Virus record (IMG/VR): IMGVR_UViG_3300044675_002427
Location: 1 to 21,464 of that record
Direction: 5' to 3' (one strand)
Source: a virus
Length of the DNA stretch: 21,464 nt
Both the position numbers and the translations under genes were made by a program. Every line of letters starts with the position of its first letter. Position 1 is the stretch's first letter. This document shows positions 4,209-12,885 of the stretch, one piece after another. The notes beneath the pieces were generated by a model. The model was not told the DNA's origin. It was given only the letters and a program-made list of their open reading frames with translations, and made no database searches.

Positions 4209-5968
4209 TGAGTTCATTTTACGACGATGCCAGTTTGGTAGTAATTCCAAGCGGCTATAAGACAAGCAAGGTATATGCCGAGAAACCAACCGACGGAAGC
4301 GGTGATTTAGCCTTCACCCGCACTGGCGATACGGCTACCCGTGTAAATTCTGCGGGGATTATTGAAAAGGTGCGGACAAATATTGTACTGCAAAGTGAAA
4401 CATTTGCAACTACTTGGGCACCTACTTCAGCATCGGTATCCTCGAATGTTACAACTGCCCCGAATGGCGCATTAACTGCTGACAAACTTATAGCATCTGT
4501 AAGCGCAGTTACGCAACACAGATTAGACCAAACTACTACGAGCGCAATTGGCACTAATGTATTTTCCGTTTACGCCAAGAAGGCAGAATTAAGCTTCATT
4601 CAACTACGTGTAGGAAGCTCTGGTGCCTATTTCAATTTAGATAATGGTACAACCTCCGATTTGGTTGGCGTTACTTCTGCAATTCAAGACGCTGGTAACG
4701 GCTGGTATCGTTGTATAATCACTTGCGTTAGTGTTGCTGCAAATGAAATAGTACGCATAAATTTAGCAAGTGCAATAGGTGTTAATAGTTTTGCAGGAAA
4801 CGGAACCAGTGGAGCCTTTATTTGGGGTGCACAGTTTGAAGTTTCTGATTTCGGACCAACAGCCTACATCCCCACCACCACAGCAGCGGTATCGATAGGG
4901 CCAACGGCTAATACTGCCCGCCTTGACTATTTAGGTAGCACTTGCCCCCGCTTGATTTTGGAAGGTCAGCGGACGAACTTGGTAACGTTCAGCGAGCAGC
5001 TGAATAATGCGGCTTGGACAAAAGACAGAGTAACGGTAACGGCTAACGTAACTACCGCCCCCGATGGTACGGTAAGTGCGGAAAAGGTAGTAGATACTTT
5101 GCAGGGCAATAACGCATACCGTATTTACAATGGTGCTACTCTTTCAGCAATCTCGTATAGCGCAAGCTTTTACGTTAAGGCAGCAGAGTACAGCTGGGTT
5201 TACATTCGCATAGGAAACAGCTTGCGAGTTTGGTTTAACGTAACTACTGGAGTAGTAGGTGGTGCGGATAGTGGGATGGCTGGTAGAATTGAAAACGCAG
5301 GGAATGGCTGGTACCGATGCACCGCAATTATCACAACCGCAACAGCTGGAGGCGGCTTTGCTTTGCTTGGCCTAACAAATGCTAACAACGTAGAAACCTA
5401 CACGCCAACCACTGGAGGTCAGGGCGTTTTTGTATGGGGCGCACAACTTGAAGCTGGAGCCTACGCAACATCCTACATACCAACCCTTGCAGCATCCGCA
5501 ACACGCTCGGTTGACGACGCAACAAAAACGGGCATTACTTCGCTTATTGGCCAGACTGAAGGCACTTTGTTTTTGGATTTTGAAGGTGGTGCAAACGATT
5601 CCGCTAACCACTTTTTAGGACTTTCCGACGGCACAACTGGCAACCGTATTGTAATTGTACGTTCAAGCTCTAACACTTTGTACGCACAAATTCGTGTTGG
5701 TGGTGTTGAGCAGGCTTTCATCCAGACGGCTACACTTACTGCTAACACTCGCTATAAGTGCGCTATTGCATACAAAGCAAACGACATTGCGTTTTATGTT
5801 AACGGGGCGTTGGTAGGTACTGACACCTCCGCAACTATTCCAGCAACAAGCGTTTTTGCAACCAATACTGGAGTAAGCTCAAGCTTTTTTGAACGGGCGA
5901 TTAATCAAACTCTTGTTTTTAAGACACGCCTAACAAACGCCGAACTCGCAACACTTACCACCCTTTAA
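4208..5968 (+). CDS. tail fibre with duplicated sugar-binding-like domains
   Basis: A 586-residue protein, rich in T, S, A, G and V, with beta-strand character throughout. The N-terminal part (about 1-55, YDDASLVVIPSGYK, then TRTGDTATRVNSAG) resembles the attachment region of many environmental phage fibres. Two related copies follow, about 56-226 and 255-426. They share RTN-I/L-V at the start, VTTAP-N/D-G in the middle, AGNGWYRC, WGAQ-F/L-E and a closing Y-IPT. This layout is like a carbohydrate-binding jelly roll. The last part, about 440-586, resembles a LamG/concanavalin domain (GTLFLDFEGG, then IAFYVNGALVG). It probably recognises host surface glycan. The start overlaps the stop of the preceding small gene. 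No enzymatic motif is seen. Confidence 0.8.
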   Translation: MSSFYDDASLVVIPSGYKTSKVYAEKPTDGSGDLAFTRTGDTATRVNSAGIIEKVRTNIVLQSETFATTWAPTSASVSSNVTTAPNGALTADKLIASVSAVTQHRLDQTTTSAIGTNVFSVYAKKAELSFIQLRVGSSGAYFNLDNGTTSDLVGVTSAIQDAGNGWYRCIITCVSVAANEIVRINLASAIGVNSFAGNGTSGAFIWGAQFEVSDFGPTAYIPTTTAAVSIGPTANTARLDYLGSTCPRLILEGQRTNLVTFSEQLNNAAWTKDRVTVTANVTTAPDGTVSAEKVVDTLQGNNAYRIYNGATLSAISYSASFYVKAAEYSWVYIRIGNSLRVWFNVTTGVVGGADSGMAGRIENAGNGWYRCTAIITTATAGGGFALLGLTNANNVETYTPTTGGQGVFVWGAQLEAGAYATSYIPTLAASATRSVDDATKTGITSLIGQTEGTLFLDFEGGANDSANHFLGLSDGTTGNRIVIVRSSSNTLYAQIRVGGVEQAFIQTATLTANTRYKCAIAYKANDIAFYVNGALVGTDTSATIPATSVFATNTGVSSSFFERAINQTLVFKTRLTNAELATLTTL

Positions 5969-6746: not shown

Positions 6747-7163
6747 ATGACAAAGAACTTCACCATCAAGGAACTGTGCGTCACCAAAACGGGGATACAC
6801 AACGAACCAAACGCCGAGCAGAAGGAAGCCTTGCGTTTACTGGCGGTAAACATTTTGCAACCTGCTCGTGATGCGCTTGGCCCAATCAAGGTGACCTCTG
6901 GGTTCCGCAATGCAAAGGTGAATGCCGCCATCGGAGGGAGCAGAACCAGTCAGCATATGAAAGGAGAAGCAGCTGACCTGCAATGCGAGGACAACGCTGC
7001 CCTGTTCAACTTCATCAAGACGCTGGAGTTCGATCAGCTCATCTGGGAGTTTGGTGATAAGGAGCAACCCGACTGGGTTCACGTATCGTATGCAAGCAAG
7101 AATCGGAAAGAAGTATTAAAAGCAACCAAGAAAAATGGAGTCACCAAATACGTCAAATTTTAA
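6747..7163 (+). CDS. endolysin, M15-family peptidase
   Basis: A 138-residue protein of the D-Ala-D-Ala carboxypeptidase / L-Ala-D-Glu endopeptidase type, which cuts peptidoglycan cross-links at lysis. Motifs seen are VTSGFRN (49-55), the zinc-binding SxHxxGxAxD box as SQHMKGEAAD with H70 and D77, and WVHVSY with H112 as the third ligand. The length is that of a single catalytic domain, with no separate wall-binding domain and no signal peptide, so export must depend on a holin. It follows two small membrane proteins and precedes a spanin-like lipoprotein, a complete lysis cassette. The start at ATG 6747 follows a 72-base gap that contains three GCGCA-type repeats. Confidence 0.92.
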   Translation: MTKNFTIKELCVTKTGIHNEPNAEQKEALRLLAVNILQPARDALGPIKVTSGFRNAKVNAAIGGSRTSQHMKGEAADLQCEDNAALFNFIKTLEFDQLIWEFGDKEQPDWVHVSYASKNRKEVLKATKKNGVTKYVKF

Positions 7164-7248
7164 CGACTGGCTGAATGAACTCGAAGAAGTACCCACACCC
7201 CCTGCTTGCTCTATTGATAATCCTTCTTGCGAGTCTTGCTCTGGGTAG
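7135..7248 (+). CDS. tiny cysteine-rich ORF overlapping endolysin and spanin
   Basis: A 37-residue ORF beginning MESPNTSNFNDWLNELEEVP and continuing TPPACSIDNPSCESCSG. It overlaps the last 29 bases of the endolysin gene and the first 74 bases of the spanin gene, each in a different frame. The amino-acid pattern (an acidic helix, then PPAC, then SCESC) looks like a real protein and resembles short conserved proteins I recall from other phages of this group. No function is known. It could still be chance open frame. Confidence 0.45.
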   Translation: MESPNTSNFNDWLNELEEVPTPPACSIDNPSCESCSG

Positions 7249-7600
7249 TTGCTCGGCTAACTGGCATCTCAAGCAGGCGGTAAAAAAGGGAGCAAAAATC
7301 ACCCAAGATAAGTGGGATACGGTAATCGTAACCAAAGAGCGACAGTTGTTTGACACCCTTGTCCTCAAAGAGATTGATTCGGTAGTTGTACGAAAGGACA
7401 ACATCCAAGTTAGTTTGATTCGCAAGTTCGACACGATCCGAGTGAAAGCGATTTGCCTTCCAGATACAATCCGAGTGACCAAGTGGGTGAAGACCACCAT
7501 CAAGCCAGATGAGAAGCCAGTTCGTACTTGGATATTCATTTCCATCTGTTGCTTCCTGCTTGCAATGCTATTCGCAATAGAAGGCGCAAGAAGGCGATAG
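7175..7600 (+). CDS. unimolecular spanin-like lipoprotein
   Basis: A 141-residue protein with a basic N-terminus, a hydrophobic segment (10-24) and a lipobox LGSC with the lipidated cysteine at C26. The middle is charged and repetitive with DTV / DTL / DTI motifs (about 48-102), and a C-terminal membrane segment runs from about 118 to 135 before ARRR. An outer-membrane lipid anchor plus an inner-membrane anchor in one chain is the hallmark of unimolecular spanins (the T1 gp11 type), which join the two membranes in the last step of lysis. The position directly after the endolysin supports this. It is the last late gene before the non-coding switch region. Confidence 0.8.
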   Translation: MNSKKYPHPLLALLIILLASLALGSCSANWHLKQAVKKGAKITQDKWDTVIVTKERQLFDTLVLKEIDSVVVRKDNIQVSLIRKFDTIRVKAICLPDTIRVTKWVKTTIKPDEKPVRTWIFISICCFLLAMLFAIEGARRR

Positions 7601-7734
7601 AGGGCATTTAGAAGCGATTTGCGGGACTTTCTTTATCTCGGTGGGTGTTTTCCTTACTTGAGTATTAAAGTGCCTTAAAACGGCTCTAATTTTCTTTTAT
7701 TTATTTTCTTTAGTTACTTTAGTTTTTAGAGAAT

Positions 7735-7749
7735 AGTTCTTAAAGAACT
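7735..7749 (+). repeat. palindrome AGTTCTTAAAGAACT
   Basis: The two 7-base arms AGTTCTT and AAGAACT are perfect inverted repeats around one central base. It lies just before the tandem 13-mers in the non-coding region. It could be an operator or part of an origin. The helix-turn-helix proteins encoded at 10670 and 13661 are candidate binders, by inference only. Confidence 0.55.
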
Positions 7750-7771
7750 AACTAACTTAACTAACTAACTT
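7746..7771 (+). repeat. two perfect tandem copies of AACTAACTAACTT
   Basis: Copies at 7746-7758 and 7759-7771 are identical, each built from the tetranucleotide AACT. They are followed by the related ACTTA pattern up to the promoter-like box at 7785. Iteron-like repeats in an AT-rich gap are typical of protein-binding sites at origins or promoters. Confidence 0.7.
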
Positions 7772-7784
7772 ACTTATATACTAC

Positions 7785-7792
7785 TTACTTTG
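7785..7792 (+). promoter_or_regulatory. promoter-like -7 box TTACTTTG
   Basis: TTACTTTGGT here is identical to the box before the gene at 12616. It resembles the Bacteroidota -7 consensus TAnnTTTG. The sequence AAATAAACCAAAATTC follows, a loose relative of the AAAACCAATC leader. No clear -33 TTTG is found about 20 bases upstream. It would drive the early region beginning at 7859. Confidence 0.4.
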
Positions 7793-7858
7793 GTAAAATA
7801 AACCAAAATTCGGATTACACAACTTTTTTCTTATTTTTTTTTGAAAGAAGTTTGCCGA

Positions 7859-8053
7859 ATGAAAAAAGACAAGCGCAGACGTGACTACTACCAACAAGTC
7901 GAAGAAGGTAAAGCCAAGAACGACTATACCAACGCATTCCTCAACCACTTCGGATTCTGCGACTACCCAAAATCAGCCAGCGTCAGTGCCGACGAAAGAA
8001 AGTATCGAAAGACAGGAGGAGTCAAGATGGCGGGCAATAATGTCGAATGGTAA
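7859..8053 (+). CDS. unknown small basic protein
   Basis: A 64-residue protein (MKKDKRRRDYYQQVEEGKAK at the start), strongly basic at the N-terminus, with no membrane segment and a single cysteine (C36). ATG 7859 is preferred to the TTG at 7841 because the sequence between them is part of the leader. The TAA stop shares a base with an ATG of the next gene (TAATG), so the two are likely translated together. It is the first gene after the switch region. I do not recognise the family. Confidence 0.68.
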   Translation: MKKDKRRRDYYQQVEEGKAKNDYTNAFLNHFGFCDYPKSASVSADERKYRKTGGVKMAGNNVEW

Positions 8054-8445
8054 TGAGGGAACCCATTACGACCTCCACGGCAACTACGGAGAGTCATTCC
8101 TATGAACTGACCCTCGGAAAGGTGCCGTCATTGAACAAATACTACTCGGGTGCCCACTGGGCAGTACGAAAGAAAGAGGGAGACCTTATCCGCAACCACC
8201 TTTTGATGCAGCTCTCCCAGTTGCCGAAGGTGGTTCTTTCTTCCTACGAGATACACCTCACCCACAACTACCGCTACGACAACGACAACTGCATCACGGC
8301 AATCAAATTCGGGGCAGATGCTTTCCGTTATTGGGGAGGTTGTGTTGATGATACGAGTAAATACTTCACCAAATTGACAATTCAAAAGGATTCGCAACTG
8401 CCTGTAAATACAGGGCTTCTGAAAATAATTGGAAAAAAAGTGTAA
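8047..8445 (+). CDS. RusA-like Holliday junction resolvase
   Basis: A 132-residue protein that probably cuts branched DNA in recombination or before packaging. Motifs of the RusA family are visible: GKVPSLNKYYSG (24-35), then YRYDNDNCITAIKFGADAF (75-93) with D78 and D80, then GGCVDDTSKYF with D101/D102. These match the three metal-binding aspartates known from RusA. The length fits the family. ATG 8047 and ATG 8053 are both in frame; the second makes a TAATG junction with the previous gene and may be the real start. Other recombination enzymes lie downstream (11931, 13878). Confidence 0.82.
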   Translation: MVMREPITTSTATTESHSYELTLGKVPSLNKYYSGAHWAVRKKEGDLIRNHLLMQLSQLPKVVLSSYEIHLTHNYRYDNDNCITAIKFGADAFRYWGGCVDDTSKYFTKLTIQKDSQLPVNTGLLKIIGKKV

Positions 8446-10436: not shown

Positions 10437-10680
10437 GTTCTTCCTCCAGCAAAAGGTCATCGACCTCGGCACAACTGCCCAATGGATTCTGGAGCAGCAC
10501 GGATACGATGGGGCAAAGCACTTCAACAATGTGTTTGACGCCTCCCGAACCATCGAGCAGTACCGTCAATTCCACAACGAAATATCAATGAAATTCTATC
10601 AGATGTCAGTTGAGAAGCAGGCACTCGAACAGAAGGTCTTGCAACTTGAACTTGAACTACAAAAGAAATATGAACTATAA
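10423..10680 (+). CDS. unknown small coiled-coil protein
   Basis: An 85-residue protein beginning at GTG 10423 inside the end of the ATPase gene; TTG 10426 is an alternative. The N-terminal half (PFEFFLQQKVIDLGTTAQWI) is globular helical, and the C-terminal third (about 57-85) is a heptad-like helix ending LELELQKKYEL. There are no membrane segments or cysteines. The 3' end overlaps the next gene by 11 bases. It may be a partner of the ATPase or of the HTH protein. The family is not recognised. Confidence 0.68.
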   Translation: MLPFEFFLQQKVIDLGTTAQWILEQHGYDGAKHFNNVFDASRTIEQYRQFHNEISMKFYQMSVEKQALEQKVLQLELELQKKYEL

Positions 10681-11065
10681 AGATTTTTGCGTACTCGTTG
10701 ATCACAAAGATGATGGCAGACGGACGCTTGCAAATGTCAAGGTGCGAGCAGCATTCACGCATTCATTCCGAAAGCGGTATAAATTGGTAGAGCTTGCAGA
10801 GCAAATGGGCAAGACCCACGCTACGGTGATTCATTATATGAGCTTGGAGTTCAGAAAGGATGCCGAATACTGGCGATGCTACCAGATAGCGCAGTCAATC
10901 ATCAACTCGGAGGAGGTCGTAGACACCTTGGACGTGGAAACTTTGGTGAAAGAACGTACCCAAATGCAGCAGCGTTTGGCGGAGAAAACTACGGAAGTTG
11001 CTATGTTACAGGAGGAAGTGGTACATTTACGTCAAAAGTTAGAGCGATTAAAGCAAATGATTTAA
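10670..11065 (+). CDS. DnaA domain IV-like HTH protein with coiled coil
   Basis: A 131-residue protein. ATG 10670 is chosen over an upstream in-frame ATG at 10610, because the latter would lie deep inside the previous gene. Residues about 25-60 contain RKRYKLVELAEQMGKTHATV followed by IHY. This matches the DnaA C-terminal DNA-binding helix-turn-helix and its signature loop (GxxHxTVxH). Residues about 92-129 form a long charged coiled coil (RLAEKTTEVAMLQEEVVHLR). It lacks the DnaA ATPase, so it is not an initiator by itself. It could bind the phage origin or act as a regulator. Its stop TAA overlaps the proposed start of the sigma factor gene. Confidence 0.75.
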   Translation: MNYKDFCVLVDHKDDGRRTLANVKVRAAFTHSFRKRYKLVELAEQMGKTHATVIHYMSLEFRKDAEYWRCYQIAQSIINSEEVVDTLDVETLVKERTQMQQRLAEKTTEVAMLQEEVVHLRQKLERLKQMI

Positions 11066-11613
11066 TATCGCAGTTCTACGCAAAGAAGCGTAAGGTCTTG
11101 GTAAATTTCACCAAGGGATACGTTGGCATGGAGGTAGCCGAGGACGTGGTGCAGGAGGTGTTCATTCGCCTTCTTCAACTTGCCGAGGAGGGAAAGGTTC
11201 ACTTCATCCAGAACGGAGAGGTGAACTTTTTTTTTGTGTACCGTTCCTGCATCAACCTCTGCATAAAACTCCAAAAGCAAAAGGAGAATTTGCACAAGCT
11301 GAACTTCGGTGATATGTACGAGTTGGATGAATGGCTACGGCAACCCGAAAACGAGTACAACTACGAGGAGGATGTGGCCTACGAGCAGCTCCTCAATTCT
11401 GTGAAAGACCAAGTGGAGGTCATCCGATGGTACGACCGAATGATTCTGGAAATCAACCAAGAGATGAGCATCAGCGAAATGAACCGCTCCATAGGCATCT
11501 CTCGTGACTCAATTCGCAACACTCTAAAACAAGCAAAAAATGAAATCAGAACAAACATCCAAGCCGACTACGAAGCGTGGCAGAAAGCCAAAAGGGGCGG
11601 GAGACGTGATTGA
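11065..11613 (+). CDS. ECF-like sigma factor with unusual start
   Basis: About 182 residues. Region 2 is seen at SQFYAKKRKVLVNFTKGYVG and EDVVQEVFIRLLQL (residues 2-39), and region 4 as a helix-turn-helix at MSISEMNRSIGISRDSI with RNTLKQAKNEI (134-161). It would redirect host RNA polymerase, perhaps to late promoters. The only in-frame ATG upstream is at 10876, which would overlap the previous gene by 190 bases and add a non-sigma-like extension. ATA at 11065-11067 shares its A with the previous TAA, the exact place of a TAATG junction, and gives a natural N-terminus. TTG 11098 and ATG 11128 would cut region 2. A run of nine T at 11227-11235 is in frame (NFFFV). The 3' end overlaps the next gene by 74 bases. 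Confidence 0.72.
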   Translation: MSQFYAKKRKVLVNFTKGYVGMEVAEDVVQEVFIRLLQLAEEGKVHFIQNGEVNFFFVYRSCINLCIKLQKQKENLHKLNFGDMYELDEWLRQPENEYNYEEDVAYEQLLNSVKDQVEVIRWYDRMILEINQEMSISEMNRSIGISRDSIRNTLKQAKNEIRTNIQADYEAWQKAKRGGRRD

Positions 11614-12555: not shown

Positions 12556-12587
12556 TTTGGTGGTCTGGTTTTTTGGTTGTTACTTTG
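12556..12587 (+). promoter_or_regulatory. Bacteroidota-type promoter candidate
   Basis: TTTG at 12556-12559 (-33 element) and TTACTTTG at 12580-12587 (-7 element) are separated by 20 bases, the spacing expected for the Bacteroidota vegetative promoter. Leader motif copy 4 follows 15 bases later, then the ATG at 12616. This is the best promoter candidate in the window. Confidence 0.55.
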
Positions 12588-12602
12588 GTGAATCAAATAA
12601 GA

Positions 12603-12615: not shown

Positions 12616-12885
12616 ATGACCACTATCTCTGAATTCGGCATCACCATCAACTACTTCAACAACGATGATATGATGGCCATCAACTCTGAGCCATCAGTAG
12701 TTAAAGTTCTGGATGATGCACGCAACTGGTTGTACTCTGGCAACTACTCCAAGAACTTGAATTCAGCAAAGTACCAAACCTACCTTGTTCGCTACGAGAA
12801 GGCGATTGACAAGGTGGTTGCAAAGATGGGTATCGACCCAAAGACCGCTCGCTACTGCGGTTCATTCGGAGACCTTTTGTCCTAA
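12616..12885 (+). CDS. unknown small protein
   Basis: An 89-residue protein (MTTISEFGITINYFNNDDMM at the start), largely helical, with tyrosines and lysines and one cysteine (C82). It has its own promoter candidate and leader motif, so it may be well expressed early. No known motif or membrane segment is seen and no family is recognised. Confidence 0.75.
   Translation: MTTISEFGITINYFNNDDMMAINSEPSVVKVLDDARNWLYSGNYSKNLNSAKYQTYLVRYEKAIDKVVAKMGIDPKTARYCGSFGDLLS

Follow-up and report, generated by a model that had tools for sequence, protein, structure and literature searches.

The noncoding gap between positions 7601 and 7858 of the window, by which we mean the complete 21,464-base virus record analyzed here, is a genuine early control region, conserved across a lineage of uncultured phages. 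It carries an array of AACT/AGTT tetramers that is conserved in kind and turns over quickly in its letters, an invariant 25-bp core, and a promoter-like box that keeps a fixed spacing from the start codon of the next gene. With moderate confidence, we regard the gap as the control region of the early operon, where promoters of the Bacteroidota type would be combined with an array that acts as a landing pad for a phage protein, either as a replication origin or in the regulation of two candidate promoters (P1 and P2).

Genome context and related phages

The gap spans 258 nt, 75 of which are G or C. A sequence-only reading of the same DNA had described it as the longest noncoding gap, placed between lysis genes and DNA-metabolism genes, and both points hold, the first among the gaps between hand-selected ORFs, the next longest of which has 94 nt. 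To the left are an endolysin gene (6747 to 7163; phrog_894, E = 1.3e-32) and an ORF whose start we read as lipoprotein-like (7175 to 7600), for which a PHROG search gave no family at an E value of 0.001. To the right is a replication module with RusA, a small phrog_993 ORF that by our own reading is SSB-like, and a primase/helicase-type ATPase. All of these genes lie on the plus strand. The label "switch region" from the same reading is not borne out, as the genes flanking the gap are codirectional and no repressor was recognized among the annotated genes.

The window was unmatched in a nucleotide search against 50,697 phage records. Its terminase is 38.5% identical to that of Flavobacterium phages, and this likeness, together with the -7 boxes described below, suggests that the phage probably infects Bacteroidota. 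The helicase had nine matches among the 50,697 records (Cellulophaga, Maribacter, and Bradyrhizobium), at identities of up to 34%. No Rfam family was found at the gathering level, no tRNA or tmRNA was detected, and a scan of positions 7500 to 7900 returned neither a sigma-70 promoter nor an intrinsic terminator. The segment after the last lysis-side ORF (7601 to 7712, plus strand) ends in a T-rich run (7690 to 7712) that is kept in relatives and perhaps marks the end of late transcription; across 15 aligned relatives, this segment offers a single weak 5-pair hairpin with one covarying pair, too little for a claim. Elsewhere in the window, the ORF at 10876 to 11613 (phrog_1740), conserved in near and distant phages, resembles an RNA polymerase sigma-70/ECF factor; it matched TIGR02985 with an E value of 1.2e-11 and 45.1 bits, below the curated cutoff of 126.4.

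Relatives were gathered in two ways. A protein search with RusA yielded 16 viral contigs, 15 of which (all except L017) contain the 22-mer TACTTACTTTGGTAAAATAAAC. The 22-mer-bearing contigs, the window, and L019, which was found through the 22-mer, make up the near set of 12 distinct sequences in two clades; L019 and L032 are incomplete at one end. With a profile of gene A, the first gene downstream of the gap, the best 80 of 89 loci comprised 15 near loci (the same ones again) and 65 distant loci (L062 to L126), the latter representing 51 distinct upstream-plus-gene sequences. Gene A is about 43 to 52% identical between the near and distant groups. The core, in the form GTA[AG]AAAATAAG[CAT], was found in 48 of the 51 distant sequences, the exceptions being one variant (L068) and two truncated loci (L098 and L118). 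No relatives of gene A were confirmed in genome contigs. Directly upstream of RusA, L002 and L003 (also L020 and L029) carry an extra ORF that we read as an HNH-type endonuclease, and in two contigs this ORF splits the gene A end/RusA start.

The AACT/AGTT array

Positions 7713 to 7784 hold a tract of AACT/AGTT tetramers. Near and distant phages alike have such a tract of 62 to 94 bp before the same small gene, flanked by the T-rich run on one side and by the core on the other; it is conserved in kind and hypervariable in letters. A script located the tract ends in 58 of 60 rows, which correspond to 49 distinct tracts. These contain 567 AACT and AGTT tetramers versus a mean of 52 and a maximum of 75 in 200 shuffles, an 11-fold excess over composition that is optimistic insofar as the tracts are treated as independent and are related to one another. 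The densest 100-bp tetramer window coincided with the tract site in 16 of 16 contigs (6 to 15 tetramers versus a contig mean of about 1). The enrichment in the window alone is modest, with 11 tetramers in the gap versus 6.3, a count that was reached by 44 of 2000 dinucleotide shuffles.

The tetramer units are mostly spaced 4 or 5 nt apart. A period of about 4.15 nt was stronger than in 300 of 300 gap shuffles, a weak result given that the tracts are related. Helical phasing was considered and dropped, with no periodic power at 10.5 bp. Many units read AAGT or ACTT. The prevailing orientation flips between clades, with 17 AGTT and 23 AACT in near clade 1, 9 and 43 in near clade 2, and 331 and 144 in the distant group, which makes duplex DNA, rather than RNA or one strand, the more likely form in which the array is read.

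The sequence-only reading had noted a palindrome and two tandem 13-mers here and had taken them, together with a -7 box, as an early promoter with an operator or as a replication origin with iterons. Both words are present as claimed, the palindrome AGTTCTTAAAGAACT at 7735 to 7749 and the two exact AACTAACTAACTT units at 7746 to 7758 and 7759 to 7771 (plus strand). Dinucleotide shuffling of the gap (2000 shuffles) produced a tandem 13-mer once and a 7+1+7 palindrome 127 times; chance is thus an unlikely source of the tandem, and the palindrome by itself carries little weight. Their conservation in relatives failed: the palindrome occurs in 3 of the 12 near sequences, the tandem form only in the window, and neither in any of the 48 distant sequences, with a single AACTAACTAACTT unit in 6 of the 12 near sequences. 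An operator or iterons in the form proposed are therefore not supported. Judged by this comparison, the palindrome and the tandem 13-mer look like private details, products of a tetramer array that is conserved in kind only. The earlier reading caught the most visible words of the region, and these are precisely its nonconserved parts.

Two exact tract words, which cover only part of the tract grammar, were searched for elsewhere. One gave a single match in genome contigs, in a Bacillota MAG, that looks like chance; the other, in viral contigs, was found in two already-known contigs and in L144. In L144, a seemingly unrelated virus contig, a long isolated AGTT/AACT palindrome lies at about 5355 to 5391 and is perhaps a terminator. 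Going by the listings of literature searches, nothing relevant was found on a comparable phage region or early promoter.

Promoter-like boxes and the first early gene

The 25-bp core (7779 to 7803, plus strand), which includes TTACTTTGG, is invariant in the 12 near sequences, one of which was found with 22 of the core bases as the search word; the other relatives were found by protein. Within the core lies the -7-like box TTACTTTG (7785 to 7792, plus strand), our candidate promoter P1, with a predicted start at about 7797. The box, one mismatch away from TAnnTTTG, is present in all 12 near sequences and in none of the 48 distant ones, and TTACTTTGG, with P1's TTTG, is likewise missing from all 48. 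The ten bases TTACTTTGGT at 7785 to 7794 recur at 12580 to 12589, a repetition to which the sequence-only reading had drawn attention. In itself, this is unremarkable, since the 8-mer TACTTTGG, present twice in the window, occurred at least twice in 10 of 100 shuffles. Moreover, a single TTACTTTGG was found in the contig of each near relative scanned (8 of 8), and the copy at 12580 is therefore not common to them; the gene that follows this copy, at 12616, was matched in 0 of the other 28 loci searched. Both sites look like members of one -7 box class, but as a pair they are not conserved.

A second -7-like box, GAAGTTTG (7847 to 7854, plus strand), constitutes candidate promoter P2 and ends exactly 4 nt before the ATG at 7859. 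The arrangement nAnnTT[TC]G-CNNN-ATG was found in 35 of 35 distinct core-to-ATG segments, and the strict form TAnnTTTG was found in 22 of them. Most distant P2 variants read TAGGTTTG, with GG at -10/-9, and the near ones begin with G or C. By eye, the -33 position, about 19 nt upstream of P2, reads TTTG in most of near clade 2, TTTT in clade 1, and TTTG, TTGG, or neither in the distant group. In Flavobacterium johnsoniae promoters, the usual start is 4 nt from the -7 element (PMC6847099). From the spacing of P2, a leaderless early mRNA starting at 7859 is therefore predicted.

Both boxes resemble Bacteroidota primary-sigma (sigma-ABfr) promoters (-33 TTTG/-7 TAnnTTTG, with a start expected 4 to 5 nt after the -7 element). 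They match the six near-invariant -7 bases at 5 or 6 positions, and P2 stands at the usual 4 nt from its predicted start (PMC6847099). They also differ from these promoters. P1 has T for A at -11, a substitution of this near-invariant base that is shared by several other boxes, and shows no clear -33 TTTG by eye; P2 has G or C for T at -12 in the near group and mostly GG at -10/-9 in the distant group, where the refined F. johnsoniae consensus has virtually no G (PMC6847099), and the -33 element of P2 is not clear. A leaderless P2 transcript would further belong to a minority: in F. johnsoniae, 87% of transcripts have leaders of more than 10 nt (PMC6847099), and in Bacteroides thetaiotaomicron, about 3.7% have leaders below 10 nt (PMC7366714).

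Boxes of the same class, in counts for which loci overlapping in content were retained, lie 15 to 28 nt before other phage genes (8475, 9511, 12580, and homologous sites), with leaders often ending in AAAACCARTC. TTnnTTTG precedes 8506 in near clade 1 (5 of 5 loci shown), TAnnTTTG precedes the SSB-like gene in near clade 2 (4 of 4 loci), and -7-like boxes precede the helicase gene in both near clades; the box at 12580 also fits the class. The promoter half of the earlier proposal is supported by the position of the gap, by the invariance of the core in the 12 near sequences, and by the constant distance of the second box from the ATG.

In the distant group, a hairpin is found downstream of the core, about 95 to 65 nt before gene A (e.g., in L065, L093, and L105). 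Its stem has 7 to 8 bp in 35 of 48 rows and 4 bp in 11 and is weak in 2, and it is kept through changes on both sides (GGGCG/CGCCC and GGAGG/CCTCC). Near relatives have no hairpin downstream of the core.

Gene A, the first early gene, is a frame 0 ORF of 64 amino acids (7859 to 8053, plus strand), and in the near relatives, conservation at the amino acid level continues in the +1 frame (8010 to 8105, plus strand). The frame changes by +1 between 8008 and 8010 in 11 of 11 distinct near sequences examined. Counted by frame 0 codon position in these 11 sequences (L020 was excluded beyond an insert), variable columns number 12/13/32 up to 8002 and 18/6/5 in 8015 to 8092, so that variation falls mostly at third positions of frame 0 before the junction and of the +1 frame after it. 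The last frame 0 codon with only synonymous variation, an Arg codon in every sequence (CGA or AGA), is 8006 to 8008; conservation of the +1 frame sets in at 8010. No shared start codon that could open the +1 frame was seen among the near sequences. A match to phrog_6291 runs across the junction, with an E value of 0.023 for frame 0 alone and of 0.0012 when read through. The simplest reading of these patterns is a programmed +1 frameshift, for which gene A is a candidate. Distant gene A homologs lack the +1 extension. A family search with gene A returned no Pfam, NCBIfam, or strong PHROG match, and its protein had no match at an E value of 1 or better in 50,697 phage records.

Function and turnover of the array

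Iteron-type origins consist of repeats of about 20 bp in fixed order and orientation. The tract resembles them as a set of short words repeated in an AT-rich stretch beside replication genes; unlike them, it has a 4-bp unit that runs in both directions in nonconserved order, and it lacks an established initiator gene next to it. Conserved long ordered repeats, as expected of iterons, were not found, the tandem 13-mer being confined to one near sequence of 12 and missing from all 48 distant ones and the units being bidirectional. The DnaA-trio opening elements of bacterial oriC have a period of 3 and lie beside a DnaA box. They share with the tract very short words rich in TAG/TAA in an AT-rich stretch, but the period of the tract is about 4.15 nt, its strand is not kept, and no DnaA box lies alongside. 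The DnaA box TTATNCACA is absent from the window, a weak result with only 0.72 expected by chance, and a phage initiator need not use DnaA boxes. The sequence-only reading had proposed GC skew as a check of the site, and the outcome is mixed. In contigs that are mostly fragments, skew was lower in the 4 kb after than in the 4 kb before the site in 15 of 16, but its sign changed in only 7, and the global extremum fell within 500 bp of the site in only 1 of 16.

Of the two helix-turn-helix (HTH) proteins named in that reading, the one encoded at 13661 matches HTH_11 and is present in only 3 of 28 loci. The early protein at 10670 to 11065 (plus strand) was found in 14 of 15 other contigs searched, at 28 to 95% identity, and is absent from G004, a fragment. 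It combines an HTH part like DnaA domain IV with a long C-terminal helix. Bac_DnaA_C matched weakly in 7 of 13 family members (best E = 0.0018). In the structural model (pLDDT 88.9), which covers all 131 residues as an HTH part and long helices, the top five structure rows belong to DnaA or replication-initiator entries (Z scores of 9.0, 8.2, 6.9, 6.6, and 6.2); the Z 9.0 row is DnaA domain IV, and according to a warning of the tool, such a score may reflect merely a common helical arrangement. In VIA-align/Foldseek comparisons, other HTH proteins ranked below DnaA, and the best Foldseek E value was 0.43. DnaA was not among the matches in PDB sequence and profile searches with this protein. 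The structure rows and the Bac_DnaA_C matches thus liken the protein to DnaA domain IV, and it differs from DnaA in having 131 residues, the long C-terminal helix, and no AAA+ part in the full model. We consider it a candidate binder of the tract. On this comparison, origin function of the region is possible, and an origin is our slightly preferred, if tentative, reading of the array.

The region may instead be an early promoter region only, with the tract as an AT-rich upstream element or regulator array for P1/P2 and with no replication role, a reading that we also hold to be tenable without expecting it to be correct. The tract ends beside the P1 box, at a distance of about 75 bp from gene A; in F. 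johnsoniae promoters, the -33 box is less pronounced than the AT-rich motifs at -18 and -28 (PMC6847099); and neither GC skew nor DnaA boxes point to an origin. AT-richness alone, however, does not demand AACT/AGTT, given the 11-fold excess over composition, and the tract of the distant group is separated from P2 by a hairpin and a total of about 95 bp.

The letters of the tract change quickly. In pairwise comparisons of 45 distant loci, median tract identity was 0.76 in the 22 pairs whose downstream DNA is at least 99% identical, and mean tract identity was 0.69 in the 479 pairs with a downstream identity below 0.85. In 100-bp bins relative to gene A, L077 and L085 are 98 to 100% identical from -1500 to -200 and 100% identical from -100 to +500 but only 72% identical in the tract bin from -200 to -100, within about 1.9 kb of surroundings at 98 to 100%. 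Conversely, identical tracts occur in differing backgrounds (e.g., L085 and L092, with a downstream identity of 0.886). The same tract types were found again in contigs of several metagenomes, which makes assembly error unlikely as the whole story. Inversion of a fixed tract was rejected as the source of variation; inverted shared words exist, yet they follow from the palindromic grammar. Such turnover between nearly identical flanks, with units mostly 4 or 5 nt apart, would also be seen in a mutational hot spot, i.e., a functionless degenerate tetranucleotide microsatellite maintained by slippage and recombination. We find this improbable, since a neutral repeat is expected to decay or move, and the tract, confined to one site in each of 16 contigs, holds the same place in the near and distant groups despite their divergence in gene A, with its letters scrambled.

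That the tract acts as RNA, either as a folded leader or as an all-frame stop-codon barrier, is very improbable: stop trinucleotides on either strand do number 1382 versus 706 in composition shuffles, folding of the distant tracts is somewhat better than that of dinucleotide shuffles (mean z score of -1.3; 8 of 37 below -2), and the distant hairpin downstream keeps its stem through two-sided changes, but near tracts do not fold (mean z score of 0.15; 0 of 12 below -2), tetramer orientation flips between clades, and the many AAGT or ACTT units contribute no stop. A six-frame stop barrier and a single conserved RNA structure, for which folding was inconsistent, were both considered and dropped.

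We thus return to an early control region with a protein landing pad. Host RNA polymerase of the Bacteroidota type would begin transcription of the early (replication) operon in the gap, starting at P2 directly on the gene A ATG to give a leaderless mRNA, with P1 in the core as a probable additional start. The array upstream is taken as a double-stranded landing pad because its presence is kept and its order is not. It probably binds a phage protein, which would either open the DNA and load replication proteins, as at an origin, or regulate P1/P2. A more daring and rather unlikely version is that this early control or replication element is set by the 4-bp word alone, with order, length, and strand free; that alleles of about 80 bp are swapped or rewritten as cassettes among phages that are nearly identical elsewhere; and that their reader is a small DnaA-like protein combining a domain IV-like part with a coiled coil.

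If the first early gene is translated from a leaderless mRNA and through a +1 frame switch, as predicted here, this lineage would show an unusual strategy of early translation. Origins and operators are usually sought by their conserved words; a region such as this one, in which the grammar persists and the words do not, would escape such searches. Should the array prove to be an origin or an initiator pad, dozens of naturally occurring variants in the lineage could be used to deduce the binding rule.
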